Shown: positions 401 to 33,573 of the stretch, one piece after another
Layout: each line of letters opens with the position of its first letter
Position numbering within the stretch: the stretch's first letter is position 1
Assembly: GCA_017475745.1 (NCBI GenBank)
Contig: JAFVEZ010000037.1
Coordinates: 1-40,498 of the forward strand
Length of the DNA: 40,498 nucleotides
Source of the DNA: Selenomonadaceae bacterium
Lineage (GTDB): Bacteria > Bacillota > Negativicutes > Selenomonadales > Selenomonadaceae
Reading direction: 5' to 3'
The notes under the pieces: generated by a model
Told to the model about the DNA's origin: nothing
The model's input: only the letters and a program-made list of their open reading frames with translations
The model's database searches: none
Position numbers and translations under genes: made by a program

Positions 401-2803
401 TCACGCCTCACTCAACATCTTCTCACCAACGCTGCCGATCCTCACTTCACCAACATTCAATTCAGTATCTTTGAGTTTCTCTTTGAGACTTGGAATATAA
501 GTGCGGAACTCGTTGGCGACTGACCGCTCTGAGAAGTAAAAGCGCATATCAAGCTGGTTATTCTCATACATTCTGAAGGTAAGCTCAACCGCTCCAATGT
601 AATCGGTGAGAACGCATATCCTCAACCAAGTCTCTTTCTTATCTTCGCCTGTGTCCTTGTCCTTTGCATTCTCGTCATAGACATGCAAGTAAGTCGGATA
701 TGAAGAGTCATTATCGCCGACATAGAGTGGCATCATCATTTGGAGTGAACGATTATTCTGAGCTGCATTCTGTACGGAAGAGTTCTCGCCGCCCATTGAT
801 TGTCGCATTGCGTTTGCAAATTCTGCAACATCTCGACCGGCCCGCTTAAAAGCCTTGGCAGAGAGTTTAGAGGTCAACGGCGCCATATCACAAAGCTGCA
901 TAAAAGCCCAGAGCCTTGGAAGGTCAGGAAGCTTCTGTTGGACTGCTGCCTGTTGGACGGTTATTGGGACATTCTGCTGGCAAAGACGCAAAAGGTTTTG
1001 GAGATGACGCGCTTCGCCTTCAGTCAGATGATCTTGATTGTTGTTTATAAAGTTTTGCAGCGTGTTTGTATCTCGTTCAGTGATATTCTGATTCCTCATA
1101 AGTAGCTGTGCAATGTCCTGCATTGTATCCATAGTCTGAGGAGTATTCTGGAGTGGTTGCTTCAAGAGTACAGTCTTGGCAGCTTGAAGATCTGCCTTGA
1201 GCTGTTGTTGACGAACCAAGAAGTCATCACCCTGCTCTAGGCGATCGAGTTGAGCTTGTAACTTCTGTGAGAAGAGTTGCTGTTGACCCTGCAAGCTGTT
1301 AGGATTGTTGAAATCTTGCTGAGGTTGAGCAGTTTGTCCTTGCTGTTGTTGACTGGTCTGCTGTGCTTGTTGATAAGGCTGTTGAGTTTGATTTGCCTGC
1401 AATGGTTGTCCTTGCTCTTGAATCTGAGACTGCGATTGATTCATTACTTGAGACTGTTGGTTAGGCTGTCCCTGTTGATTAATCTGTTGGAATTTCCCTT
1501 GATTTTGCATCTGTGGTTGAGTTTGATTAAATGCCTGCTGCTGCCCTTGCTGATTCTGTGCTTGAGGTTGCTGATTCATTTGTTGAGGTTGTGTCTGCTC
1601 CTGCATAGGAGACTGTGGCTGATTCAGTGTTTGACTTTGTCCTTGTTGGTTTGTCGCTTGAGGTTGCTGACCAGATTGACCTTGCTGATTAACTTGCTGG
1701 AACTGCCCTTGATTCTGCATTTGCGGCTGAGTTTGAGCTTGACTCATCTGTTGTGACTGGTTAGCCACCTGTGACTGCCCTTGCTGATTCTGTGCTTGAG
1801 GTTGTTGATTCATTTGTTGAGGTTGTGTCTGCTCCTGCATAGGAGACTGTGGCTGATTCAGTGTTTGACTTTGTCCTTGTTGATTTGTCGCTTGAGGTTG
1901 CTGACCAGATTGACCTTGCTGATTAACTTGCTGGAACTGCCCCTGATTCTGCATTTGTGCTTGAGATTGATTTGCCTGCTGTTGCTGCTGAGATTGATTG
2001 GTTTGTTGCCCTGCTGACTGCTGCGCTCTTAGATTCCCAAACATTGACTGCAAGAACTGTCTAGCTTGAGATTGTGCTGCCTGTCTCTGGAGCTGTCCTT
2101 GATCTTTACCCTCAGCATTTGAACTTTGACCTGTCTCAGCGGGTCTGGGCATAAAATACTTAACGAGCTGTTTGAGAAAGCCCATACTATCGCTCTCTTG
2201 TGCCGTTGAAGTAGAGGTCTGATCGGCACTGCTGGCCGACAAAGCTGAGAGAATAGCATAGAGCTGCTGCGGAAGTTGTTCAGCGGTCTTGGAATCAATA
2301 AGCTCAAAGGCGGCCTTTGAGAGAAGTACCGGCTCCAAGGCGCTACCACCCTCTTCACTGATTATCAACGATTTGAAGTTCTTCAGTAACAATTCCATTT
2401 GATCGCTTAGTTCCATTGAGAAGCCCTTTTCAGCAAGAGCACCGATTTGACTGAGCATACGAGCAAAGACTGAAAGTTGCTCCATTGAGAATCGCTGACT
2501 TTCAAGTGTAGAGCCAATGCCCTGCGACAGTGTGGATTCCATAGAAAAAGCCTGCTGCAAGACGTTTTTGACAACTTGACTAACTTCGTCCGGCAGGCGC
2601 TCCATATTGAGTTTCTCGTTTGTGGATATTTTAGAAAGCACACCCGCCATATCATCAATGGCAGTTTTGATAGCAACATTAGTCTGAGGTTTAAAACCAG
2701 AGCCAGAGCCGCCATCTTCTTTGCGTTGGATACCATCAGTTGTGCCTGTTCTCTGTGGCTGATTTACAGGTCTAATGCCTATTGCTCCTGCTTCCATTGG
2801 CAT
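401..2803 (-). CDS. Gln-rich FliK/YlqG-like flagellar hook-length control protein
   Basis: An 800-residue protein with a helical N-terminal part (about 1-230), a very Gln/Asn-rich low-complexity middle (about 240-520), and a folded C-terminal part (about 560-800). The end of that part, with VELTFRMYENNQLDMRFYFS and IPSLKEKLKDTELNVGEVRI, resembles the FliK C-terminal domain. Order and strand match Bacillus ylqF-rnhB-ylqG, whose third gene is a FliK-like protein. FliK proteins measure hook length and switch export specificity; YlqG-type members are less understood. The ATG at 2803 is preceded by AAGGAAG about 10 bases upstream. The middle contains a near-exact 78-codon duplication, listed separately. 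It could instead be a general FliK-fold protein without a flagellar role. Confidence 0.75.
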   Translation of the reverse strand: MPMEAGAIGIRPVNQPQRTGTTDGIQRKEDGGSGSGFKPQTNVAIKTAIDDMAGVLSKISTNEKLNMERLPDEVSQVVKNVLQQAFSMESTLSQGIGSTLESQRFSMEQLSVFARMLSQIGALAEKGFSMELSDQMELLLKNFKSLIISEEGGSALEPVLLSKAAFELIDSKTAEQLPQQLYAILSALSASSADQTSTSTAQESDSMGFLKQLVKYFMPRPAETGQSSNAEGKDQGQLQRQAAQSQARQFLQSMFGNLRAQQSAGQQTNQSQQQQQANQSQAQMQNQGQFQQVNQQGQSGQQPQATNQQGQSQTLNQPQSPMQEQTQPQQMNQQPQAQNQQGQSQVANQSQQMSQAQTQPQMQNQGQFQQVNQQGQSGQQPQATNQQGQSQTLNQPQSPMQEQTQPQQMNQQPQAQNQQGQQQAFNQTQPQMQNQGKFQQINQQGQPNQQSQVMNQSQSQIQEQGQPLQANQTQQPYQQAQQTSQQQQGQTAQPQQDFNNPNSLQGQQQLFSQKLQAQLDRLEQGDDFLVRQQQLKADLQAAKTVLLKQPLQNTPQTMDTMQDIAQLLMRNQNITERDTNTLQNFINNNQDHLTEGEARHLQNLLRLCQQNVPITVQQAAVQQKLPDLPRLWAFMQLCDMAPLTSKLSAKAFKRAGRDVAEFANAMRQSMGGENSSVQNAAQNNRSLQMMMPLYVGDNDSSYPTYLHVYDENAKDKDTGEDKKETWLRICVLTDYIGAVELTFRMYENNQLDMRFYFSERSVANEFRTYIPSLKEKLKDTELNVGEVRIGSVGEKMLSEA
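1541..1722. repeat. Internal direct repeat in the FliK-like gene, copy A
   Basis: A 182-base unit repeated at 1775-1956. By eye only three substitutions separate the copies. The offset is 234 bases, exactly 78 codons, so the reading frame is kept. It encodes a Gln-rich segment that includes MQNQGQFQQVNQQGQSGQQP. Confidence 0.9.
1775..1956. repeat. Internal direct repeat in the FliK-like gene, copy B
   Basis: Second copy of the 182-base unit at 1541-1722 (same orientation, 234-base offset). A third, strongly diverged protein-level copy (MQNQGKFQQINQQGQPNQQS) lies nearer the C-terminus, at about 1425-1510. This suggests repeated expansion of the linker. Confidence 0.9.
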
Positions 2804-8932: not shown

Positions 8933-10045
8933 GTGCAAATAAATTCAAATAAAAGATGGTTGAGAGCCTTATTTATTTTGGGTGGTCTGATAATAGTAGC
9001 AATCGTTTGCGTTTTGTCCTTTGCCTTTGATGTATCAGTAGAGGATAAGAACCAAGAGCGAATCGGATTGCTTTTAATTGATAGTAATAATAACGAGGAA
9101 TGGAAGAAAATTCAATATAACAGCCTAAAAGAAGTGTGCTATGAAATTGGTGCAGTGCTTCTCGATAGACAAAGTGTTACAGAAAACGCCGTAAACTTTA
9201 AATTAATGATCTCTGAACTTGTAAATGAAGGCGCCAAGATGATATTTGTCACCACTCCGACTAATACTCTTCCAAGAGAATATTTTGCAGAAGAATATCC
9301 AAATGTTGATTTTGCAACCAATTCTGTTGATTATAGAGAAAAGAATTTAACACCTTACCTAGTTAGAATGTATCAAGGTCGTTGGTTGTCTGGAATACTC
9401 GCCGGAATGAAAACTAAAACCAACGTCATAGGTTATGTGGCTTCATTACCTGATTCTTTGATAAATCTTGAGATAAATGCCTTTGCCTTAGGTGTGCAAA
9501 GGGTAAATCCAAATGCCGAAGTTATCGTAATGTGGACGGGTGATTGGAATAATGCAGAAATAGAGGAAGAGCATACCAAGCGCCTTGTGAATGAAGCAAA
9601 TGCTGATATCATCACCTATCATCAAAATGATAGAACCGTAGCAGATACGGCAGAAGCTCTTAATGTGGATTTTATCGGATATAATGATAATCTTGAAGGT
9701 TACTCGGAACACCGTCTCACCTCAGTCGTGTGTCGTTGGGATATCTACTATCGAGATATTATCAATAGATATCTCAAAGGTGAACTGAATCATAACAACG
9801 ATCGTTGGCTTGATATAAATAGCGGTAGTGTTGTACTCACTAATTATTCTGATCTTGTTACACCAGAAATGCACAACAAGGTTGAAAGTTTGCGACAAGA
9901 ACTCCTTCAAGGTAATAATATATTTTCTGGCGATATATATGACAATGAAGGTGTTCAACATTGTGCAGATGGTGAGACTATAAGTGACAAAGCTCTCCTC
10001 TTTAGGACAAACTGGCTTGTGAGAGGAGTTAAGGTTCTTGAATAA
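8933..10045 (+). CDS. Membrane-anchored BMP-family (PnrA-like) binding protein, probable sensor
   Basis: 370 residues. One N-terminal transmembrane helix (about 11-31, [20 protein letters not shown]) has no lipobox Cys, and is followed by a class I periplasmic-binding-protein fold of the basic membrane protein type: [75 protein letters not shown] proteins usually bind nucleosides or autoinducer-like ligands for ABC import. Here there is no transporter; the gene overlaps a histidine kinase by 8 bases, so ligand sensing for the kinases is inferred. The start is GTG with GAGGTGG four bases upstream. The stable membrane anchor also suggests a sensor rather than a freely moving binding protein. 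Confidence 0.82.
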
Positions 10046-12944
10046 ATTGAAGCAAAAATTAAAGTATCACGGCATATCAATGCGTACCTTCTATAACTTT
10101 CTAATGTTGCTATTGTGTCTGCTGGCATTTGCATTGCTGATGCAATATAAGATGACTAAACTTCTAAACAATGCATTGGAGCAACAGCTTATTCGTCAAA
10201 CTGCCAACCTCTCAATGATGGCGGAAGAGCGAGTTGACAAAACCTTTGAAAATTTAGAGTATTTAGCGAAGCACATTGAGGAGAGTCCTTCTGTCCTACC
10301 TGATTTAATGAAGCGTCTCAATGCTGCTAAAGCTGAATTTAAGGTTCGCGGAATTTTAATAGGTATAATTGATTCAAACGGTAAAGCCATTCAAGGTGAA
10401 GGATTGAGCCACTCTGATTTTAAGAACTTATATATGTCATTCCGTGGCCACAGAGTCATTGACTATTGCTCTGGCAAGGGTCTCTTATTTGCTTGTCCAA
10501 TCTATAATGGCAATAATATTCGATATGTCATTTACCGACTCTATGAAGAGCGCGTTCTGTTTGATAATTTCGGACTTGAAGAGTATGATTCCGCCAGCCA
10601 TATCCTAATTCAGAACAGTGTAGGAGAAGTTGTAGTGCCTTATCGCGGATATAATAAGAAGGATAAGGACTTTTTTGCAGATCACGTGATTGCCGAGGAC
10701 TTTTACAAAGTTCGCGATAAGCTCAAGTACAAAAAGGCAGCATCAACTTACTCAGAGGGCTCAAAAGGTAAATACTTCATATTTGGTTCAAATTTACCTA
10801 AAACCGATCTGAAGATTATGGGCTATGTACCTTGGCAGGCGGTAGGTAAAAGTATAGAAAAGGCAAATGCATTGATATTTATAGTCAATAGCCTTCTAGC
10901 ATTACTCTTTTTCGTAGTGAGTGCCTATCTCTTGTTGTTAAACGAAAAGGCTAAACTCACCGATATACTCAGTGTTGAGAAGACCGAAGCGGATCAAGCA
11001 AATCAAGCCAAATCTGCCTTCTTGGCCAATATGAGTCATGAGATTCGCACGCCGATTAACGCCGTCATCGGCATGAATGAGATGATTCTTCGCGAATGTA
11101 AGGACGCAACGATAATCAAGTATGCCCAAAATGCACACGCCGCTTCAGAATCACTACTGTCATTAATCAACGACATACTTGACTTCAGCAAGATAGAGAG
11201 CGGCAAGATGGAACTTGTAGAGGAAATTTATCGCCTTGATGATCTCGTCAAGAATCTCGTCAACATGATAAAACCACGTGCTGACAAGAAGGATTTAGCC
11301 TTCGAGGTTAAGGTTGATGATAGTATACCCAATGAGTTGTACGGTGATTCTGTGAGACTTCGCCAAATTGTTGTAAACTTCTTAACCAATGCCGTGAAGT
11401 ATACCAAGGTTGGTAGTGTTGTATTCAGTGTCAGCAAAGAAGATCGTGGCAGTACTGAGATCATCTTGAAGTTTAGCATTAAGGATACTGGAATTGGTAT
11501 TCGTGAAGAAGACAAACAGAAGTTGTTTACGGACTTCCAGCGCTTCGACTCCAAGAAGAACAAGAACATTGAGGGCACTGGTCTCGGCCTTGCTATTACT
11601 TATAGACTCGTCAACATGATGGACGGCTGGATTCAAGTTGAGAGCGTGTATGGCGAAGGATCAAACTTCATAGTGATGATACCTCAAAAGGTTATGGGTA
11701 CGGAGCTAGTAGGTAACTTTGCAGAGAAGTTGAACACTTTGACCGAAAAGCCCAAAGAGTATAAAGTCAGCTTTATTGCGCCAGAAGCTAAGATTCTAGT
11801 CGTTGATGACAATGAAATGAACTTGCTAGTTGCAACGAGTCTGTTAAAGTCAACACAAATTCAAGTTGACACGGCAATGAGCGGAATGTCTGCCCTCAAG
11901 AAAATGGCGGAGAAGCAGTATGACTTAATCTTAATGGATCAAATGATGCCAAGTCTCGACGGTATCCAGACACTCAAACTCTCTAAGGACATGGAAGAAA
12001 ATAAATCTCTAAATGCTCCAATGATAGTTTTGACGGCAAATGCAATCTCCGGTGCAAAGGAGATGTTCATTAAAGAAGGATTTACCAATTACCTAAGCAA
12101 GCCGATTGACGTTGCTGCCCTTGAGAAGATGTTGATGGACTATCTACCGATTGAAAAGATTAAGGCACCGGATAGTACTCAGCAGGTGGCAGACAGCAAC
12201 AAGCTTGCGGCGGATAGTGTTCAGCAGGCAGAGAACGGTGGAGAGGAATATAAGTATCTGAATACCACTATGGGATTGCAGTACAGTGCCGGAATGGACG
12301 ATATGTATCGCAATATCTTAGAAATGTTCTGCAAGCTCAAGGACGACAAGAAGGCTAAAATCCAGGAAGCTTTCGATAGTGGAGATTGGAATAGTTACAC
12401 TACCTTTGTACATGCTTTGAAGTCAACTTCGCTGTCAATCGGTGGAGAGCAGACCTCAGAACTTGCCAAGCAGCTTGAGGAATCTGGTAAAATATTAATA
12501 GCTAAATCAACCTCAGAATTGGACAAGCAACAGGCTGAAGAATATATCAAGACCCACAATGCCGAAGCAATGGACCTTTACGACAAACTTGTTGAAGAGG
12601 GTAGAAGGTATCTAAATTTAAAGGTAGAAGATAATATTCAGCCGACAACAGAGTCGACAGAAGATATAATTCAGCAGTCGTCAGTTGATGACGAAGAGCA
12701 AATCAAAGATGATTCCGATTTGGAATTTATGATAAATCTTCAAGAAGCTTTCGAGAGTGAAGACTGGGCAAAGTATTCTTCGTTGCTGCAAGGAATTACA
12801 CAGGACTTTGACGAACTTAAACAAATCAAGATGCTCTGCCAAATGATAACCTCAGACCTCACAACCGATGAGGAGAAGTCAGAGGCAATTAAGTATATCA
12901 AGGAACATCATAATGATATTATAGAAGCGGTGGCGAAAGAGTAA
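10038..12944 (+). CDS. Hybrid histidine kinase: HisKA-HATPase-REC-HPt plus degenerate HPt-like repeat
   Basis: 968 residues. TM1 (about 17-37) and TM2 (about 278-300) flank an extracytoplasmic sensor region of about 240 residues. Then come HisKA with phospho-His334 in [15 protein letters not shown], HATPase_c ([26 protein letters not shown]), a receiver with phospho-Asp634 in LILMDQMMP, and an HPt domain with His792 in [11 protein letters not shown]-terminal segment from about 895 ([20 protein letters not shown]) mirrors the HPt helix but has Gln918 in place of His. The start is TTG at 10038, ten bases after GGAG and overlapping the BMP gene. It should autophosphorylate and pass phosphate through its own REC and HPt to a response regulator. 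Confidence 0.93.
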
Positions 12945-12946
12945 CT

Positions 12947-15865
12947 ATGTTCAGACTACTGAAAAAAGGCACAAAGTCAGATTTCTACGTAATTGCGGTG
13001 ATTGTCCTGTTGTGTCTCTTTAGGACTACCCTGTCACTATATTTGGAATTGGACAACTACCAGCAAATAGTTCTCAATGCACTGATCAGCGTGATGATAC
13101 TGGTAATAGTCTTATTCACACTGAAGAAGAAGATAACAAATCAGCAGGAGCTCAACACGAAAGAAAATCTCCTCAATGGTCTGCTGGCAGAGAGTCGTCA
13201 AACTCTCAAGGTGATTATCAGTGTCGCTCAAGATAACCAAGTCAAAGAGCCGGCAATGCAGCTCAGTGAAATGATTGACAACATAAGGACATTCAATACC
13301 GTCGAGACGGTAAGCGTCAATCGACCTGAGGAGCTGCTGAAGAGGTCGCGTCTCAATAAGCGATTGCGATTGGGTATTGTTGCTATCCTTGTTGTGCTGA
13401 TGCTTGGCAGTCTCGCTGTCTATGTCGGCACGACGTTTGAGCTCATTGAAAGCCAGATGTATCGTGCTATTGATCTCTCTGATAATGAGGCAGTTGCCAA
13501 GCTCCTCGGCAAGGGCAGCTATACTTTCCGCGTTGATGAGAGCGGTGCTATCCTTGATCACCCAAACAGTGACTACAATTCTAAAAACATCAAGCAGACC
13601 GAATATTTGGAGTCGTACCAAACTGGCACCACAACTTTTATCACCGATTACACCGATAGTTACTGTGTATGTTTGAGTAAAAAGGACCCTGCCACCGGTT
13701 ATCGCACTGTGGTGGTGACAAGTTGGTGGACTATGTACGGCAGCAGTCTGTTGTTGGGAGTTATCATCTTCTTGATTTTCCTGCTATGTATTATTGTTGT
13801 TGATATTTTCATTGATCGTCTCTTTGACTGGCAGGATTCCGTCAACAGTCAACTTGAAAAGGCGATTGATGATGCAGTCGCAGCTGGAAAGGCAAAATCT
13901 CAATTCTTCGCGCAAATGTCACACGAGATCAGAACGCCTATCAATGCCGTCATTGGTATGAACGAGATGATTCTTCGTGAGTGCAGAGATGCTGCTATCA
14001 TCAAATATGCTCAAAATGCTCACGCCGCGTCGGAAGCTCTCTTGTCGTTGATTAATGATATTCTTGACTTCAGTAAACTCGAATCTGAGAAGATGGAACT
14101 CGTTGAAGAGACTTACCAACTTGATGATCTCATTAGGAATCTCATCAACATGATAAAATTCCGTGCCGAAAAGAAAAGTCTTGACTTTCGAGTGAATGTG
14201 AACGAAAATATACCTAACGAACTTTTTGGCGATTCGACGAGAATACGTCAAGTCGTTGTAAACTTTTTGACAAATGCCGTCAAATATACCAAAGTCGGTG
14301 GCGTACTGTTTACTGTTGATATGGAATTAGGTATTGATGATGATGGAGCGAAACGCCAACAAGGAGAGGTGCTTTTAAAATTCAGCGTCAAAGACAGCGG
14401 TATAGGTATTCGTGATGAGGATAAATCCAAACTCTTCAAGGACTTTGAGCGCTTCGATGCCAAGAAGAACAAGAACATTGAAGGCACGGGTCTCGGTCTT
14501 GCAATTACTGCCAAATTAGTAAAAATGATGCGCGGCAAGATTGAGGTTGAAAGCGTTTATGGTGAAGGTTCAACCTTTACCGTGCTGGTACCTCAGAAGG
14601 TTATAGGTAGAAAAGGTGTTGGCAGATTTGAGGAAAAGGTAAAGGCAGAAAAGCCTAAGACAGACGCTTATAGAGTTAGCTTCGTTGCGCCTAATGCCAA
14701 AATTCTTGTCGTAGATGACAATGAGATGAATCTACTTGTTGCAACAAGTCTACTAAAGGCAACACAGATACAAGTTGATACTGCTATGAGCGGAATGTCT
14801 GCACTCAAAAAGATGGCTGAGAAAAAGTATGATGTGATATTTCTTGATCAAATGATGCCTAGCTTGGACGGTGTGCAGACATTGCACCTTGCCAAAGACA
14901 TGAAAGAAAACAAGTCGCCGGACGCTCCGATGATAGCACTGACAGCAAATGCTGTCTCCGGTGCAAGAGAGATGTTCTTGAAAGAGGGCTTCAACGATTA
15001 TCTCAGCAAGCCGATTGATGCCGTCGCTCTTGAGAAGATGCTTGCAGAGTATCTGCCTAAGAACTTGCTTCAAGAACCACCTGAAGAAGGTGAAGCGATC
15101 GTATCTACGCCAGCCGCTAACTACTCGCCGCCACCACCTGCTTATAATACTCCAGTGCCGAGTTCTCCGGCAACTGCCGACTACTCTTTGCTGAATCCTG
15201 CTCTGGGTTTGCAGTACAGTGCCGGTATGGAAGATATGTATCGCAACGTTTTGGAGATGTTCTGCAAACTCAAAGATGAGAAGAAGGCGAAGATTCAAGC
15301 GGCCTTTGACAGTAAGAATTGGAATGATTATACCACCTTCGTCCATGCTCTTAAGTCTACCTCGCTGTCAATCGGCAGTCAGAAAACATCAGAACTTGCC
15401 AAAAAGCTTGAGGAATCAGGTAAAATCTTGATAGCGAAATCACCTTCAGAACTCGATAAACAGCAAGCGGAAGAGTTCATCACTAATCATCACGCTGAAG
15501 CAATGGAACTTTACGATAAACTTGTTGAAGAAGGTCGACAATATCTTGGTGGAGGAGCCGCTTCCGCGATGACAAGTACTATTAAGGTTAAAGCTGAGTC
15601 CATTCCTGCGGAACCGAATGCCGAAGATGAGGAAGATGATTCTGATCTTGAGCTGCTATTGGGGCTGCAAAATGCCTTTGAGAGCGAAGATTGGGCAAAG
15701 TACGCCGAAGCGATTCAAGCTATTAGCGATACCGATAACGCCACCTTCAAACAGGTTAATATGGCTTGCAAGATGGTTACTTCTGACCTTACTTCTGATG
15801 AAGAAAAAGTTGAGGCTGTCAAATACATTAAAGATAATCACTCCAAAATAATGGAGATGCTGTAA
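12947..15865 (+). CDS. Second hybrid histidine kinase, paralogue of the preceding gene
   Basis: 972 residues, starting 2 bases after the previous stop. The cytoplasmic core is nearly parallel to the upstream kinase (HisKA His326 in [15 protein letters not shown], receiver Asp634 in [11 protein letters not shown], HPt His800 in FVHALKSTS), but the input part is different. It has four transmembrane segments (about 13-31, 39-60, 140-160, 265-290) with a short extracytoplasmic loop (161-263) that may be a small Cache-like fold. A Pro-rich linker (PPPPAYNTPVPSSPA) joins REC to HPt. The C-terminal repeat [20 protein letters not shown] has Gln924 at the His position, as in the first kinase. It is an apparent tandem duplication with exchanged sensor domains. 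Confidence 0.93.
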   Translation: MFRLLKKGTKSDFYVIAVIVLLCLFRTTLSLYLELDNYQQIVLNALISVMILVIVLFTLKKKITNQQELNTKENLLNGLLAESRQTLKVIISVAQDNQVKEPAMQLSEMIDNIRTFNTVETVSVNRPEELLKRSRLNKRLRLGIVAILVVLMLGSLAVYVGTTFELIESQMYRAIDLSDNEAVAKLLGKGSYTFRVDESGAILDHPNSDYNSKNIKQTEYLESYQTGTTTFITDYTDSYCVCLSKKDPATGYRTVVVTSWWTMYGSSLLLGVIIFLIFLLCIIVVDIFIDRLFDWQDSVNSQLEKAIDDAVAAGKAKSQFFAQMSHEIRTPINAVIGMNEMILRECRDAAIIKYAQNAHAASEALLSLINDILDFSKLESEKMELVEETYQLDDLIRNLINMIKFRAEKKSLDFRVNVNENIPNELFGDSTRIRQVVVNFLTNAVKYTKVGGVLFTVDMELGIDDDGAKRQQGEVLLKFSVKDSGIGIRDEDKSKLFKDFERFDAKKNKNIEGTGLGLAITAKLVKMMRGKIEVESVYGEGSTFTVLVPQKVIGRKGVGRFEEKVKAEKPKTDAYRVSFVAPNAKILVVDDNEMNLLVATSLLKATQIQVDTAMSGMSALKKMAEKKYDVIFLDQMMPSLDGVQTLHLAKDMKENKSPDAPMIALTANAVSGAREMFLKEGFNDYLSKPIDAVALEKMLAEYLPKNLLQEPPEEGEAIVSTPAANYSPPPPAYNTPVPSSPATADYSLLNPALGLQYSAGMEDMYRNVLEMFCKLKDEKKAKIQAAFDSKNWNDYTTFVHALKSTSLSIGSQKTSELAKKLEESGKILIAKSPSELDKQQAEEFITNHHAEAMELYDKLVEEGRQYLGGGAASAMTSTIKVKAESIPAEPNAEDEEDDSDLELLLGLQNAFESEDWAKYAEAIQAISDTDNATFKQVNMACKMVTSDLTSDEEKVEAVKYIKDNHSKIMEML

Positions 15866-15889
15866 TATTAAGTAATAAGGAGAATTGAT

Positions 15890-16663
15890 ATGTCCAACGA
15901 ACTTGAAGGCAATGTGATCCTCGTTATTGATGATGACGAAATCAATTTGCAAATGGCAAAGATGATACTTGAAAAGAAACTGCCTTGCCGCGTGATAACC
16001 TGTGATAACGGTATCCAGGGAATAGAAATCTTGAAGCGGCAATACGTCCGTCTCGTCTTGCTGGATATTGTTATGCCTTTCTTTGACGGTATTCAAACCC
16101 TCGAAAAGATTCGCGAAGACCCAAAACTCAAAAACATGCCGGTGATTATGCTAACCGCTTCGACTTCCAAGCAGCATATAGCCAAGGCCATACTTCATGG
16201 TGTCAAGGACTATGTTAAGAAACCTTTCATGCCTGATGAGCTGGTAGATCGAGTGAGCAAGAAGTTAGGACCTATTACTACCAATTCAAAACCGACTCTC
16301 CTGCTGATTGACGACAATGAAGCCAATCGAAAACGCACTCAGGCGGTACTTGAGAGTAGTTTACCTCACGAAGTAATAACGGCGGGTTCTGGTATTGATG
16401 GTATGGAGATTCTCCGCAAGCAGAAGGTCAATCTGGTAGTTGCGAATGCCGAGATGAGCTTTATCAACGGCTATAGGATTGTTGACTTTATGCAGGGCGA
16501 TGCTAATCTGAAGAAGATACCTGCATTCCTCATGGTCTCTTCAGATGATGCTGAGACTGTCCAAAAGGTCAAAGATTCCAACGCGAAGGGTTGTTTGAAA
16601 AAGCCTATTATGGACGCTACCACAATAGCACCGATCATTGAGTATCTAAAAGCGAAGAAGTGA
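15890..16663 (+). CDS. Stand-alone double-receiver protein (REC-REC), second receiver degenerate
   Basis: 257 residues made of two CheY-like domains and no output domain. REC1 (about 8-127) has the acidic pair IDDDE, phospho-Asp59 in VLLDIVMPFFDG, Thr89 in MLTAS and Lys111 in VKKPF, so it looks functional. REC2 (about 135-255) keeps the acidic pair LIDDNE, Ser in MVSSDD and Lys in LKKPI, but the acceptor site reads VVANAEMSFINGY, with Asn186 replacing Asp and Ser replacing the usual Pro. AAGGAG lies 11 bases before the ATG. Its position after two kinases with HPt domains makes REC1 the likely phosphate acceptor; output must go through protein contacts. Confidence 0.92.
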   Translation: MSNELEGNVILVIDDDEINLQMAKMILEKKLPCRVITCDNGIQGIEILKRQYVRLVLLDIVMPFFDGIQTLEKIREDPKLKNMPVIMLTASTSKQHIAKAILHGVKDYVKKPFMPDELVDRVSKKLGPITTNSKPTLLLIDDNEANRKRTQAVLESSLPHEVITAGSGIDGMEILRKQKVNLVVANAEMSFINGYRIVDFMQGDANLKKIPAFLMVSSDDAETVQKVKDSNAKGCLKKPIMDATTIAPIIEYLKAKK

Positions 16664-24959: not shown

Positions 24960-25808
24960 TTATCCTATATCAACTAATTTACCTTGGCGATTGTTAAAAG
25001 TAAGCATTTTGGAATAACCGAAACTTTTAACGTAGTTGATCGCTTCATCACAGAAACTGCCACAATCTTCAGGTTTGTGAGCGTCGGAAGAGATTATTAT
25101 TGGAAGTTCGTATTTGGCAGCGATCTTCATAAATTCAGGATAAGGTGATATCTCCTCGATTGGATAGCGATAACGTGTGCCGGTATTGACATCAATCGCC
25201 ATATTTGATGCTTTTAGTGCCTTGGCTACTCTCTCAAGGTATTCAGTTACATCAAATTCAGGTATGTTTTTGAAAAGACGAATATTAAACGGATGGCCAA
25301 GTACATCGTAGAGTTTAGCGGCAGCAAGTTTTTCGACTTCTTGAGTATACCATTCGTAAATCTCATAGAGATCGTGATTATTCCACTCAGATTTAATCTC
25401 TGAAGAATCATAAGCCCAACCGCGCAAGAAATGAACTGATCCGATTATATAGTCGAAGTTATAAGCAGCAAGAATCTTCTTGACGGCAGATTGATCCTGG
25501 AAGTTACAGACTTCAATTCCAGTCTTAACGTTGTGATTTTTCTTGAGTTTGGTCATAAAGTTAAAATAATCATTAAGAGTGTGCTTGAATTTGTTCTTCT
25601 TGAGCCACTTCTGCTGGAATGTACCGACAAAGGAGTCGTCTAAAATTAAATCATCATAATAGAGTTGTTGAAACTCTGGGAAAGTGTGCGAGTGTTCAGT
25701 TATTCCAATCTCATCAAGACCGCGACGCTCTGCAGCATCAAAGAAACCTTGTACCCATTTTTCGTCATAATCACCATATTCAAAATGCATGTGATAATCT
25801 ATCTTCAT
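24960..25808 (-). CDS. PHP-family histidinol-phosphatase
   Basis: 282 residues. The metal-binding motifs of the PHP fold are visible: DYHMHFEYGD, ITEHSHTFPE, TGIEVCNF, IIGSVHFLRG, DVLGHPFNI and IIISSDAHKPED. Proteins of this subgroup hydrolyse histidinol phosphate in histidine synthesis (HisK/HisJ type), although some act on other phosphates. I choose ATG 25808, nine bases from GGAGGTG (25818-25824); the TTG two codons earlier is too close to that site. It has no clear promoter of its own and lies just downstream of the structured RNA and its terminator. No other his gene is near. Confidence 0.85.
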   Translation of the reverse strand: MKIDYHMHFEYGDYDEKWVQGFFDAAERRGLDEIGITEHSHTFPEFQQLYYDDLILDDSFVGTFQQKWLKKNKFKHTLNDYFNFMTKLKKNHNVKTGIEVCNFQDQSAVKKILAAYNFDYIIGSVHFLRGWAYDSSEIKSEWNNHDLYEIYEWYTQEVEKLAAAKLYDVLGHPFNIRLFKNIPEFDVTEYLERVAKALKASNMAIDVNTGTRYRYPIEEISPYPEFMKIAAKYELPIIISSDAHKPEDCGSFCDEAINYVKSFGYSKMLTFNNRQGKLVDIG

Positions 25809-25878
25809 TATCAATTACACCTCCAAGATTTCACTTAATATCATACTTAATGATAAATCTGAAATACTAAATATCACA

Positions 25879-25911
25879 AAAGCCGCTGCACTTTCAAAGT
25901 ACAACGGCTTT
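25879..25911 (-). terminator. Intrinsic terminator of the structured RNA
   Basis: AAAGCCGTTGTACTTT pairs with AAGTGCAGCGGCTTT on the minus strand, a stem of about 15-16 bp completed by three G-U pairs (A-C mismatches on the plus strand), followed by TTTTGTGATATTT. It lies about 55 bases before the Shine-Dalgarno site of the PHP gene, so read-through would transcribe PHP-ftsE. Confidence 0.85.
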
Positions 25912-26143
25912 CACTTTGGATCTAAAAACACATTAAAACCTCTTTCCTAGACGACCGAGTAATGCCAATCATACCACATGACCCAGCCAAGCGACCCCTA
26001 TCGGTCAAGCCTGCACTGCAAGCAATCTATTTCGACATGCTTTAACATCTCCGTGGACTATTTTAACTTCAAAAGAAACATTTCGATCGTCTCAAAGACT
26101 TGCTTCACCCTGTTTCAATAGACATCACTCCCTAAACTAGGAT
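25879..26143 (-). ncRNA. Unrecognised structured RNA, about 265 nt, with own promoter and terminator
   Basis: The minus strand carries a promoter, a transcribed stretch with no open frame of note, and an intrinsic terminator. Three helices fit the minus strand only through G-U pairs: outer ATTGAAAC (26112-26119) with GTTTTAAT (25932-25939), long-range AGACGATCGA (26083-26092) with TCGGTCGTCT (25949-25958), and the terminator stem. Smaller elements are AAGCA/TGCTT and GACC-GATA-GGGGTC. The architecture, a long closing stem around a branched interior, suits a stand-alone ncRNA (6S-like is one option) or a regulatory leader of the PHP-ftsE genes downstream. It lacks the T-box AGGGTGGNACC element, the tmRNA and RNase P signatures, and the SRP core. 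The 5' end is inferred from the promoter. Confidence 0.65.
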
Positions 26144-26149
26144 ATATAA

Positions 26150-26178
26150 AATATAGCATATGCAATCACTTTTGTCAA
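26150..26178 (-). promoter_or_regulatory. Promoter of the structured RNA
   Basis: TTGACA (26173-26178), 17-base spacer, TATATT (26150-26155) on the minus strand. Predicted start near 26143. A perfect -35 and near-perfect -10 at ideal spacing. Confidence 0.85.
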
Positions 26179-26329
26179 GTGAATTTACAAAAAATTTTAA
26201 AAAATATTGTACATTTAAAATATCAAATTTTGAGTCCATGCTATCTGCATTTTTAAATTATCTTTCATCTGTATCATCAGTGTAATTGTAACCTTTTTTA
26301 AATTAGACAAAGAATTTTTTAACAAGCAT

Positions 26330-29950: not shown

Positions 29951-32143
29951 ATGAAGCTTAAGACGGTGACTAAAAGGTCGGGAACGACGGTTATTTATGA
30001 CAGAAACAAAATATTTAATGCCATAGCCGGAGCCAACCGAGATGCCACTACGCCAAAAGACCGCCTGCAGGCTTCGGACATCGACGCTGTGACCGGCGCC
30101 ATTGAATTTGCCATCTCTGATCGGGACAGTATCGGCGTTGAAGAGATCCAGGACGTTGTGGAGAAGAGTCTTATGGCACATGGTTTTTTTGATGTAGCTA
30201 AACAATATATTGTCTATCGTGAGAAGCACGCCCGTCGTCGTGAAGCTCAGAAGCGCTTGATGGACACTTATCGCGATATCTTCTTTGTCGATTCTAAGAG
30301 CGTAGATCTCAAGCGTGATAATGCTAACATTAACACCGACGCATCAATGGGTATCATGCTCAAGCTTGGTGCAGAAGGCGCAAAACATTTCGTTGACAAC
30401 TACGTCTTGCCGGAAGAATTTGCCATTGCAGATCACGAAAACTATATTCACATTCACGATAAGGACTTCTCATTGATAACCTTCAACTGCTGCCAAATTG
30501 ATCTATTAAAACTCTTCCACGGCGGTTTTTCGACAGGTCATGGCTTCTTGCGTGAGCCTAATTCCATTCGCTCTTATGCTTCACTTGCCTGTATTGCAAT
30601 TCAGAGTAATCAGAATGACATGTTCGGCGGGCAGTCAATCAATGCCTTCGACTATGCAATGGCTGAGGGTGTCCGCAAATCCTTCAAAAAGTCAGTTCTC
30701 TCTGAAATTAAGCGTGCTTCATTCTATTGTGGTGTCGACGAAGTTAATGTTGATGAGATTGACTTTGAGATTTGCAGATATGCCGAAAACGAAAATCCTG
30801 CCGCGGTTGCTCATTTATCTGAGGTTTTGGGCTTCGATGAGAAGTTAGCCAAAGCGGTTTACAGTGAAGCTTGTCGCGATGTTGAAGAAGAGACTCACCA
30901 GGCTATGGAAGCATTGATTCACAACTTCAACACTCTTCATTCTAGGGCAGGTGCACAGGTGCCTTTCAGCTCAATCAATTACGGTATGGATACTTCACCA
31001 GAGGGTCGTCTTGCAATTCGTGAGGTATTAAATGCGACTGAAGCAGGCCTTGGAAACGGTGAGACGCCTATCTTCCCGATTTCGGTCTTCCAACTCAAAA
31101 GCGGTGTCAATTACGACTTCAACGATCCGAATTACGATCTATTTCAACAGGCTTGCCGTGTGAGTGCAAAGAGACTGTTTCCAAACTTCGTCAATATAGA
31201 TGCGCCTTACAATCTGCAGTACTACAAGCCAGGTGACTATAATAGTTGCGTTGCCACAATGGGTTGCCGTACAAGGGTTATGAGTAATGTCAACGGTCCA
31301 GAGGAATCAGGCTCAAGAGGTAATTTCTCATTTGTTACGATCAATCTGCCGAAGCTGGCACTTGAAGCTAAAGGTGATGTTGATGTATTCTTTGAGCTGT
31401 TTGATAAATATATACAAATAAGTCACGATTATCTGCTCTTCCGTCTTAAAACTATTGAAGACAAGCACGTTTACAACTATCCATTCCTGATGGGACAAGG
31501 CGTATGGATGGGTAGCGACAAATTAAAGTTGACTGACGGTATTCGTGAGGTCTTAAAACATGCTTCACTCTCAATCGGCTTCTGTGGTCTTGCTGAGTGT
31601 CTGGTTGCCTTGATAGGTAAACACCACGGTCAAAGTGAGGAAGCACAAGAACTCGGCTTGAAGATAGTTGGACATCTCCGCGAGAGAACGGACAAATTCA
31701 CAGCCGAAGAGCATAAGAATTGGACTACCTTTGCCACACCTGCTGAGTCAACTGCCGGTCAGTTCCAGCGCTCCAATCGCAAGAAATACGGTAGAATCAA
31801 AGGTGTCACCGACCGCAACTATATGACTAATTCCAATCATGTGCCGGTCTACTACAAGATGAGCGTCATGAAGAAGATTGAAATTGAAGCTCCATATCAC
31901 GCTCTCTGCAATGCCGGACACATTGCCTATATCGAGATTGATGGTGACCCTGCCAAGAATCCTACGGCATTTGAAGCAGTCATTAGGGCAATGCATGACG
32001 CCAATATGGGTTACTTTAGCATAAATCACCCTGTCGACCGCGACCCAATATGCGGCTATACTGGAATCATCGAGAATGAGTGTCCTCATTGCCATCGCCG
32101 CGAAGTGACCGTCGGTAAATTTCACATCAATCGTTTACATTAA
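29951..32143 (+). CDS. nrdD: Anaerobic ribonucleoside-triphosphate reductase NrdD (C-terminal end unusually short)
   Basis: A 730-residue class III ribonucleotide reductase. It has an N-terminal ATP-cone (about 1-95, TKRSGTTVIYDRNKIFNAIA), then the 10-stranded barrel: FGGQSINAFDYAMAEGVRKS, RAGAQVPFSSINYGMDTSP, a CVATMGCRTRVMSN segment likely to bear the catalytic Cys, and SLSIGFCGLAECL. Near the end is a Cys-rich zinc-type site, DPICGYTGIIENECPHCH (698-715). In the family a glycyl-radical loop of the RxxGYL type normally follows this site; here the protein ends 16 residues later (KFHINRLH). Either the radical Gly is missing or the ICGYTG segment serves. GGAG lies eight bases before the ATG. 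No nrdG follows. Confidence 0.9.
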   Translation: MKLKTVTKRSGTTVIYDRNKIFNAIAGANRDATTPKDRLQASDIDAVTGAIEFAISDRDSIGVEEIQDVVEKSLMAHGFFDVAKQYIVYREKHARRREAQKRLMDTYRDIFFVDSKSVDLKRDNANINTDASMGIMLKLGAEGAKHFVDNYVLPEEFAIADHENYIHIHDKDFSLITFNCCQIDLLKLFHGGFSTGHGFLREPNSIRSYASLACIAIQSNQNDMFGGQSINAFDYAMAEGVRKSFKKSVLSEIKRASFYCGVDEVNVDEIDFEICRYAENENPAAVAHLSEVLGFDEKLAKAVYSEACRDVEEETHQAMEALIHNFNTLHSRAGAQVPFSSINYGMDTSPEGRLAIREVLNATEAGLGNGETPIFPISVFQLKSGVNYDFNDPNYDLFQQACRVSAKRLFPNFVNIDAPYNLQYYKPGDYNSCVATMGCRTRVMSNVNGPEESGSRGNFSFVTINLPKLALEAKGDVDVFFELFDKYIQISHDYLLFRLKTIEDKHVYNYPFLMGQGVWMGSDKLKLTDGIREVLKHASLSIGFCGLAECLVALIGKHHGQSEEAQELGLKIVGHLRERTDKFTAEEHKNWTTFATPAESTAGQFQRSNRKKYGRIKGVTDRNYMTNSNHVPVYYKMSVMKKIEIEAPYHALCNAGHIAYIEIDGDPAKNPTAFEAVIRAMHDANMGYFSINHPVDRDPICGYTGIIENECPHCHRREVTVGKFHINRLH

Positions 32144-32214: not shown

Positions 32215-33573
32215 ATGAACGCTATACACAAATTCAAACAGGGCAACGATTATATCCTGCTGGACATCAACAGTGGTGCTGTTCACCTCATTGATGAGAT
32301 GATATTCAACATTATGGATATCTTTGACGGCACCAATGATGCCGAGGTCATCGACAAATTTAGGTATCGTTATGATTCCTCTGAACTCTCTGAAGCTCTC
32401 GAAGAACTTCATGAACTTATTGATTCTGGTTATCTGTTTGCGCCCAATATTGATGTGCCGCCAACCTTTGCTCAAAAAGGTATAGTCAAGTCACTCTGCT
32501 TGATGGTTGCTCAAGATTGCAATCTACGTTGTAAATACTGCTTTGGTGACGGCGGCAGCTATGGTAATAAGCGTGCAGTTATGAGTGAGGAAGTTGGACG
32601 CCGCGCCGTTGACTTCATTATTGAGAACTCAAGGAACCGCCGTCACTGTGAGATTGACTTCTTCGGTGGTGAGCCACTCATCAACTTCAAAGTAGTCAAA
32701 GCTGTAACCGCATATGTTCGCCAACGTGAGCTTGAGACTGACAAAGTATTCAAACTGACATTGACGACCAATGGTATGCTTCTCAATGACGATACGATTA
32801 AGTGGCTTAACGACAATAATATATCTTTGGTGTTGAGTTTGGACGGACGCAAGGAAGTTCACGACGCCATGAGACCAGATTCGACGGGTCACGGCAGCTA
32901 TGATAGAGCGCTGAAGAACTTCAAGAGATTGGTTGATACTCGCAAAGGTGAGAACTACTATCTTCGCGGCACTTATACTAAGAATAACCTTGACTTCACT
33001 GCTGATGTTCTTGATCTCAATGACAAGGGCTTTGATATATTGAGTGTTGAACCTGTTGTGTTGAAAGACTCGCCACTTGGCTTCACTGAGACTGATCTGC
33101 CACGTATCAATGAAGAGTACGACAGATTGACTGCGGCTTATCTCAAAAGACAGCGTGAAGGCAAAGGTTTCTTCTTCTTTCACTTCAACATGGATTTGTC
33201 AAATGGTCCCTGTGTTGCCAAGAGATTGAGTGGTTGCGGTGCCGGTCACGAGTACTTCGCTGTTGATGTCAATGGTGATTTATATCCTTGTCATCAATTC
33301 GTCGGACGTGACAAATATAAGCTCGGTAGTGTCTTTAGCGGTGTTGATGATCCTCAAGGTTGGAGTGAGTATTTTCGTCAGTCTCATGTCCTCAATAAGC
33401 CCAAGTGTCGCGAATGTTGGGCAAGGTTCTTCTGCAGCGGCGGTTGTCACGCCAATGCTGATCTCTTCCACAACGATATAAGGGAACCCTACGAGATCGG
33501 TTGCGAAATACAAAAAAAGCGCTTAGAATGCGCCATATATGTACAAGCTCTGTTGATGACAGGTATTTCCTGA
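32215..33573 (+). CDS. SCIFF-type radical SAM/SPASM peptide maturase
   Basis: 452 residues. The N-terminal part, HKFKQGNDYILLDINSGAVH, is the leader-recognition-like start shared by maturases of SCIFF (six Cys in forty-five) peptides, such as CteB. The radical SAM cluster is CNLRCKYC (Cys102, 106, 109), followed by IDFFGGEPLINF and SLDGRKEVHDAMRP. The SPASM part has LSGCGAGHEYFAVDVNGDLY, PCHQFVG, CRECWARFFCSGGCHANAD and EIGCEIQKKRLECAI, giving two auxiliary [4Fe-4S] clusters. CteB-type enzymes form thioether links from Cys to a backbone alpha-carbon. AAGGAG precedes the ATG. Normally a SCIFF peptide gene lies just upstream; here nrdD does, with only 71 bases between. Confidence 0.88.
   Translation: MNAIHKFKQGNDYILLDINSGAVHLIDEMIFNIMDIFDGTNDAEVIDKFRYRYDSSELSEALEELHELIDSGYLFAPNIDVPPTFAQKGIVKSLCLMVAQDCNLRCKYCFGDGGSYGNKRAVMSEEVGRRAVDFIIENSRNRRHCEIDFFGGEPLINFKVVKAVTAYVRQRELETDKVFKLTLTTNGMLLNDDTIKWLNDNNISLVLSLDGRKEVHDAMRPDSTGHGSYDRALKNFKRLVDTRKGENYYLRGTYTKNNLDFTADVLDLNDKGFDILSVEPVVLKDSPLGFTETDLPRINEEYDRLTAAYLKRQREGKGFFFFHFNMDLSNGPCVAKRLSGCGAGHEYFAVDVNGDLYPCHQFVGRDKYKLGSVFSGVDDPQGWSEYFRQSHVLNKPKCRECWARFFCSGGCHANADLFHNDIREPYEIGCEIQKKRLECAIYVQALLMTGIS

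Follow-up and report, generated by a model that had tools for sequence, protein, structure and literature searches.

The question raised by this locus is whether an intergenic stretch upstream of a gene for a PHP-domain protein encodes an RNA of its own and, if so, of what kind. The window, that is, the whole stretch of DNA analysed, comprises 40,498 nt from a Selenomonadaceae bacterium (contig C49 of genome G000, which is 81% complete). The RNA gene lies on its minus strand at about 26143-25877, with a predicted transcript start near 26143 (minus) and a predicted length of approximately 265 nt. An earlier note on this DNA had taken it for an undescribed structured RNA, a claim that is upheld by homologues, covariation and the absence of Rfam matches. 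We conclude that it is a real, narrowly distributed and undescribed structured RNA with an unusual two-minigene layout and a putative regulatory function.

Promoter, fold and 3′ hairpin

The consensus promoter that had been read on the minus strand holds on inspection (Table 1), and TTGACA is found upstream of the RNA in all eight homologues; a strict promoter scan was positive in three of the five members scanned (the window's copy, L065 and L064) and negative in L097 and L096. The strand specificity of the fold was likewise corroborated. Folding of the minus strand gives -84.8 kcal/mol (z -4.10), with none of 200 shuffles equally stable, versus -43.4 kcal/mol (z -1.35) and 17 equally stable shuffles of 200 for the plus strand. 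The description of the 3′ hairpin as a strong terminator fared less well: the hairpin of the window passes the terminator scan, as does that of L097, but those of L065, L064 and L096 fail through short T-runs, so that, with one of four homologues passing, a strong terminator is only moderately supported.

Table 1. Predicted features of the RNA gene, in order of transcription (window coordinates)
Feature	Position	Strand	Details
Promoter	26150..26178	-	-35 TTGACA 26178-26173, 17 nt, -10 TATATT 26155-26150; 11/12 consensus bases, letters checked
Shine-Dalgarno site 1	26128..26133	-	AGGGAG; predicted -10.6 kcal/mol (-10.6 to -14.3 in the eight members)
Mini-ORF 1 (ORF1)	26092..26118	-	TTG start, 8 codons, KQGEASL after start, TGA; translation
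Covarying branched domain	25949..26091	-	Closing helix and two inner hairpins; both-sided changes, letters checked
Inner helix of branched domain	26056-26052 with 25978-25974	-	
Inner hairpins of branched domain	26042-26020 and 26014-25986	-	
Shine-Dalgarno site 2	25939..25945	-	AAAGAGG; predicted -10.4 kcal/mol (-9.9 to -12.9 in the eight members)
Mini-ORF 2 (ORF2)	25911..25931	-	GTG start, 6 codons, FLDPK after start, TGA; translation
3′ hairpin	25876..25914	-	Terminator-like, 15-pair helix; foot overlaps ORF2 stop codon; terminator scan

Distribution and covariation

BLAST recovered three copies among 60 relatives, the window's copy included. A covariance model built from these three (R1) was applied to 66 genomes of the genus, 15 of which gave a match at E≤1 and eight of which carry a full-length copy (G000, G007, G031, G070, G087, G081, G008 and G064). 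From these eight members we built a further model (R2), along with a version that omits the hairpin (R3). In the 66 genus genomes, R2 scores the members at 284.7 to 111.2 bits and the next match at 29.7 bits, and the corresponding values for R3 are 243 to 95.6 bits and 21.9 bits; since both models were built from the members, their scores are high by construction, and it is the gap to the rest that is informative. Neither R2 over 189 genomes of the family (best other match, 38 bits) nor R1 over 250 genomes of the class (39 bits) yielded a new member. All searches over more than 40 genomes used strict filters, with first-look candidates scored in part, and most of the genomes are incomplete. 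Each member genome holds one full-length copy, and the distribution is patchy (8/66), a count that comes from genomes of which the majority are incomplete and from models of limited reach for very distant copies. A public genome collection scanned with an exact pattern gave five Selenomonadaceae MAG records (rumen, reticulum or deer), which would correspond to five of the members.

When R2 was run on 40 further loci from two pattern searches, three weak matches were obtained, the best of which (20.6 bits) is not a member; seven loci of the second pattern were inspected, and three of them lie within frames of more than 200 codons. The five weak matches outside the members that were aligned rest on the 3′ hairpin. 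Hairpins resembling it account for weak model matches across the family, and one of them, a terminator-like hairpin of the GAGCCGTTGCAG..CTGCAGCGGCTTTT type at another place in a member genome (L084:776-906, G007:C39), closely resembles the RNA's own. A phage, viral or plasmid origin was also considered and discarded: viral contigs contained no match to either of two exact patterns, and blastn against phages and plasmids was likewise negative.

Covariation in relatives had been named as a test of the structure. Across all eight members, both-sided changes occur in 33 of 72 pairs, versus 4-8 in slid controls and with 0/500 in shuffles; in the six closer members the figure is 9 of 72 (slid controls 1-4; 0/500 shuffles), and both sets of counts come from alignments fitted to the model, a bias in its favour. 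By helix, such changes in the eight members affect 10 of the 16 pairs of the closing helix, 5 of 10 in the second hairpin and 5 of 15 in the 3′ hairpin. Consistency is lowest in a two-pair helix, where 75% of cells are paired, and in the basal helices to which ORF1 contributes (87.5-89.4%).

Comparison with described RNA families

The search against Rfam that the earlier note had proposed turned up no known family. At the gathering threshold of Rfam 15, the RNA stretch has no match (the two matches in the window are tRNAs), five homologous loci have none either, and at E≤10 over 25800-26250 no match is credible, the best (E 1.2, 19.2 bits versus a cut-off of 55) falling on the plus strand. The suggestion that the RNA might be 6S RNA (RF00013) is rejected, since the same genome carries a separate 6S gene on another contig (G000:C22:31288-31467, 55.3 bits, cut-off 46.4); the 6S search was above the cut-off in 44 of 60 genus genomes, this one included. 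Like the present RNA, 6S RNA is a stand-alone structured RNA of similar size, but RF00013 has no match in 25800-26250 even at E≤10. In the literature searched, which includes PMC6429828 and PMC8708949 and a minority of subscription papers, the RNA is not described.

Two mini-ORFs at the feet of the structure

The claim that the stretch lacks a meaningful frame has to be abandoned, as each of the eight homologues carries two mini-ORFs preceded by strong predicted Shine-Dalgarno sites. Frames of 4-12 codons were scanned from every start codon, and upstream pairing was predicted with a standard 16S tail as a stand-in for the genome's own. In every member, two frames and no more reach -9.9 kcal/mol or better; this threshold was chosen post hoc as the value of the weakest member. 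Frames with weaker sites also occur (e.g., -8.5 in G000) and are not shared. The start codons of the mini-ORFs are mostly TTG or GTG. ORF1 has eight codons in seven members and nine in G064, and would encode MKQGEASL in G000, G007 and G031, MKQGEASH in G070, MKKGEASL in G087, MKQGESNS in G081 and, in the divergent pair, MTNEVTSF (G008) and MTKEVQIFR (G064). ORF2, counted from the strong-site start, has six codons throughout, and its peptide is not conserved (MFLDPK in G000, MNLDSN in G007, MKFVYK in G031, MKLFFY in G070, MELFPK in G087, MNSDSN in G081, MLSGKN in G008 and MLSEIK in G064). In G008 and G064, an in-frame upstream GTG with a weak site would extend ORF2 to nine codons. A further frame in the middle of the RNA appears by eye to be open in the G070 copy and is interrupted by stops in that of the window.

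Two such frames in one RNA are rare in controls. Among shuffled sequences of the four members tested, 27, 6, 7 and 12 per 1000 contained at least two, and 15 of 1342 tiles of the window contain at least one strong-site frame, the single tile with two being the RNA gene itself. As a further control, 6 of 58 region-strands of 6S RNA have at least one. After column shuffling, 1648 of 20000 alignments still had an unbroken ORF2 in every one of the six close members, so the conservation of ORF2 taken by itself is weak evidence.

Each frame keeps its start site, its length and the register of its stop, whereas the ORF2 peptide changes. Measured against helix starts set manually on the alignment, the end of the ORF1 stop falls between -2 and +1 nt of the branched domain's opening pair in all eight members, and the ORF2 stop starts within 0-1 nt of the pair that opens the 3′ hairpin. 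A layout descriptor, whose limits were fixed once the members were known, recovered seven of the eight members and nothing else from 204 loci (1.43 Mb, both strands, many overlapping), missing G008. At the level of predicted coding and structure, a covarying fold, two mini-ORFs and stop codons at the feet of the structures are thus common to the eight.

Genomic neighbourhood

The earlier note had weighed a stand-alone RNA against an attenuating leader. Five neighbourhoods are found among the eight members. The RNA precedes a PHP-domain protein (above the cut-off of a HisJ-family model) in G000 and G007, with FtsE also present in G000; it lies between a TPR protein and cydA in G031, between proB and lgt in G008, and between a flagellar rod-type gene and a glycosyltransferase gene in G064; and in G070, G081 and G087 it faces the end of a conserved gene next to metA, the same gene in all three. 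Because the flanking genes vary from genome to genome and, in three of eight, the next gene points towards the RNA, a stand-alone gene is favoured and the leader alternative loses ground. Control by read-through would be possible in the five other genomes, where a co-directional gene starts some 35-115 nt after the hairpin. No conserved or functionally linked downstream gene of the kind found with uORF leaders and attenuators was seen across the eight members. A general role as leader of the PHP/ftsE genes is rejected, as six of the eight genomes have the RNA at another place and BLAST finds it at 2 of 30 PHP loci, some of which end short upstream.

The gene beside metA in G070, G081 and G087 encodes a conserved 226-aa protein (L096:8180-8860, plus strand), which has no Pfam match and has relatives in 58 of 66 genus genomes. 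An empty-site comparison near metA was attempted, and the gene order there is too rearranged to be read.

Proposed mode of action and alternatives

Our preferred reading, held tentatively and with somewhat less than even confidence, is that this stand-alone RNA of about 265 nt belongs to a family that Rfam does not contain and that has a covarying domain between two mini-ORFs, and that it would act in trans as a regulator through the uptake of ribosomes. Ribosomes would initiate at both predicted Shine-Dalgarno sites; a ribosome finishing ORF1 would come up against the helix that closes the branched domain, and one finishing ORF2 against the 3′ hairpin. For ORF2, the position of the ribosome rather than the peptide would matter, since length and start are kept while the peptide varies. 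The output in trans might be exerted via the engaged ribosomes or via sequence exposed in their presence. It is the pair of tiny frames, each of which would halt a ribosome at the base of a fold, that points to a ribosome-based regulatory RNA. A bolder version, possible but doubtful, would make the RNA half message and half machine, a new bacterial class in which two minigenes dock ribosomes in a fixed register against two structures of a stand-alone RNA, which would thereby sense or govern how translation itself is running.

Constrained folding of the eight members was used to examine a switch in which translation of ORF1 frees site 2. In G000, G007 and G064, at least 98% of the predicted pairing of site 2 is with ORF1, and blocking ORF1 raises the accessibility of site 2 from 0.34 to 0.63, 0.34 to 0.75 and 0.28 to 0.80, respectively, and blocking a stretch inside the branched domain leaves it unraised. 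The result in G081 is partial (39% of the pairing; 0.39 to 0.58). For G031, G070, G087 and G008, folding lends the switch no support, and blocking ORF1 even lowers accessibility in G070 (0.61 to 0.24) and G087 (0.80 to 0.60). With modelled support in three members and partial support in one, such a switch is only partly supported and is not claimed here. A trap for rare-codon tRNAs is unsupported in the window's copy, all of whose codons reach at least 10 per thousand in 14 genes of the window.

One alternative is a ribosome-controlled transcription attenuator, in which ribosomes that translate first ORF1 and then ORF2 as far as the hairpin foot would block the terminator, so that transcription would continue into the next gene. 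The ORF2 stop within the foot of the terminator-like hairpin would suit it, as would the co-directional genes for the PHP protein (G000, G007), cydA (G031), lgt (G008) and the glycosyltransferase (G064). These genes are unrelated, however, cydA has its own promoter-like site after the RNA, and both the facing gene in G070, G081 and G087 and the scarcity of the RNA at PHP loci tell against this reading, which we consider unlikely. Another alternative is a conventional small RNA that acts in trans by pairing with target messages and whose mini-ORFs are no more than incidental runs of purines. It would agree with a stand-alone gene that has a promoter and a hairpin; the purine-rich sites might have other uses, and the column test for ORF2 is weak. 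Yet strong-site frames, their lengths and the stop-at-foot register are common to all members, the divergent G008 and G064 included, and the two-frame layout is rare in shuffles and tiles, which makes this explanation rather improbable.

Finally, the RNA could be a small message that works through its encoded peptides, the ORF1 octapeptide foremost. The octapeptide is identical in G000, G007 and G031 and one residue off in G070 and G087, but the nucleotides of the close members are conserved in any case, ORF1 differs in G081, G008 and G064, ORF2 peptides vary freely, and a message would not need the covarying domain. We regard this as very improbable, and continue with the ribosome-based regulatory RNA as the working interpretation.

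Comparison with known short-frame systems

Three described systems resemble the RNA in part. The first is the CreT small RNAs of CreTA modules, whose activity is reported to depend on a mini-ORF with its start codon and on a stem-loop or hairpin (PMC8501985, PMC10097628). The mini-ORF of the H. hubeiense toxin is given as six codons, a strong Shine-Dalgarno sequence is noted for H. hispanica and the Acinetobacter RNAs, and tandem rare codons in the mini-ORF are a trait of two haloarchaeal CreT groups. The likeness lies in a strong predicted ribosome site, a mini-ORF and an adjacent stable stem, which by prediction occur twice per member here. The present RNA differs in having two mini-ORFs and a branched covarying domain, in its mostly TTG or GTG starts and, in the window's copy, in lacking tandem rare codons. 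CreT RNAs lie in CRISPR-Cas surroundings together with a creA partner; no Cas domain that would indicate such a neighbourhood was found among the 16 neighbouring proteins scanned.

The odc1 motif is of the uORF type (PMC8632094): a predicted ribosome site is sequestered in a stem, a real gene is controlled, and an 11-residue peptide is conserved. Both RNAs tie a short frame to a covarying structure, but in the present RNA the second frame is six codons long, and the gene downstream is not conserved. Upstream of Salmonella mgtB, the short frame mgtQ overlaps alternative stem-loops by which a second ribosome site is either hidden or exposed (PMC8092293). A short frame linked to a second ribosome site would be the shared element, supported by folding in three of eight members here and partly in one; mgtQ, however, acts in cis on mgtB within an operon and is not a stand-alone RNA.

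If the ribosome-based reading is true, coding and structure would be fitted together to the exact nucleotide in this RNA family, without a downstream gene to regulate. Frames of 6-9 codons fall under the size that gene finders report, and structured-RNA searches (e.g., PMC8632094) class such cases with upstream ORFs; for both reasons, similar RNAs could be common and yet missed. As a descriptor, the placing of a stop codon at a structure's foot is simple and applicable to any genome.

Other features of the window

Several further features of the window deserve mention. A radical SAM/SPASM protein encoded at 32215-33573 (plus strand) scores 585.6 bits with the model for SCIFF peptide maturases (TIGR03974), above its cut-off of 425; its gene begins 71 nt after that for an anaerobic ribonucleotide reductase (29951-32143), with no precursor-peptide frame in the gap. 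An 800-aa ORF at 401-2803 (minus strand) has a long, repetitive, glutamine-rich middle. At 8933-16663 (plus strand), four ORFs appear by eye to encode a substrate-binding protein, two similar tandem hybrid histidine kinases and a double receiver protein.
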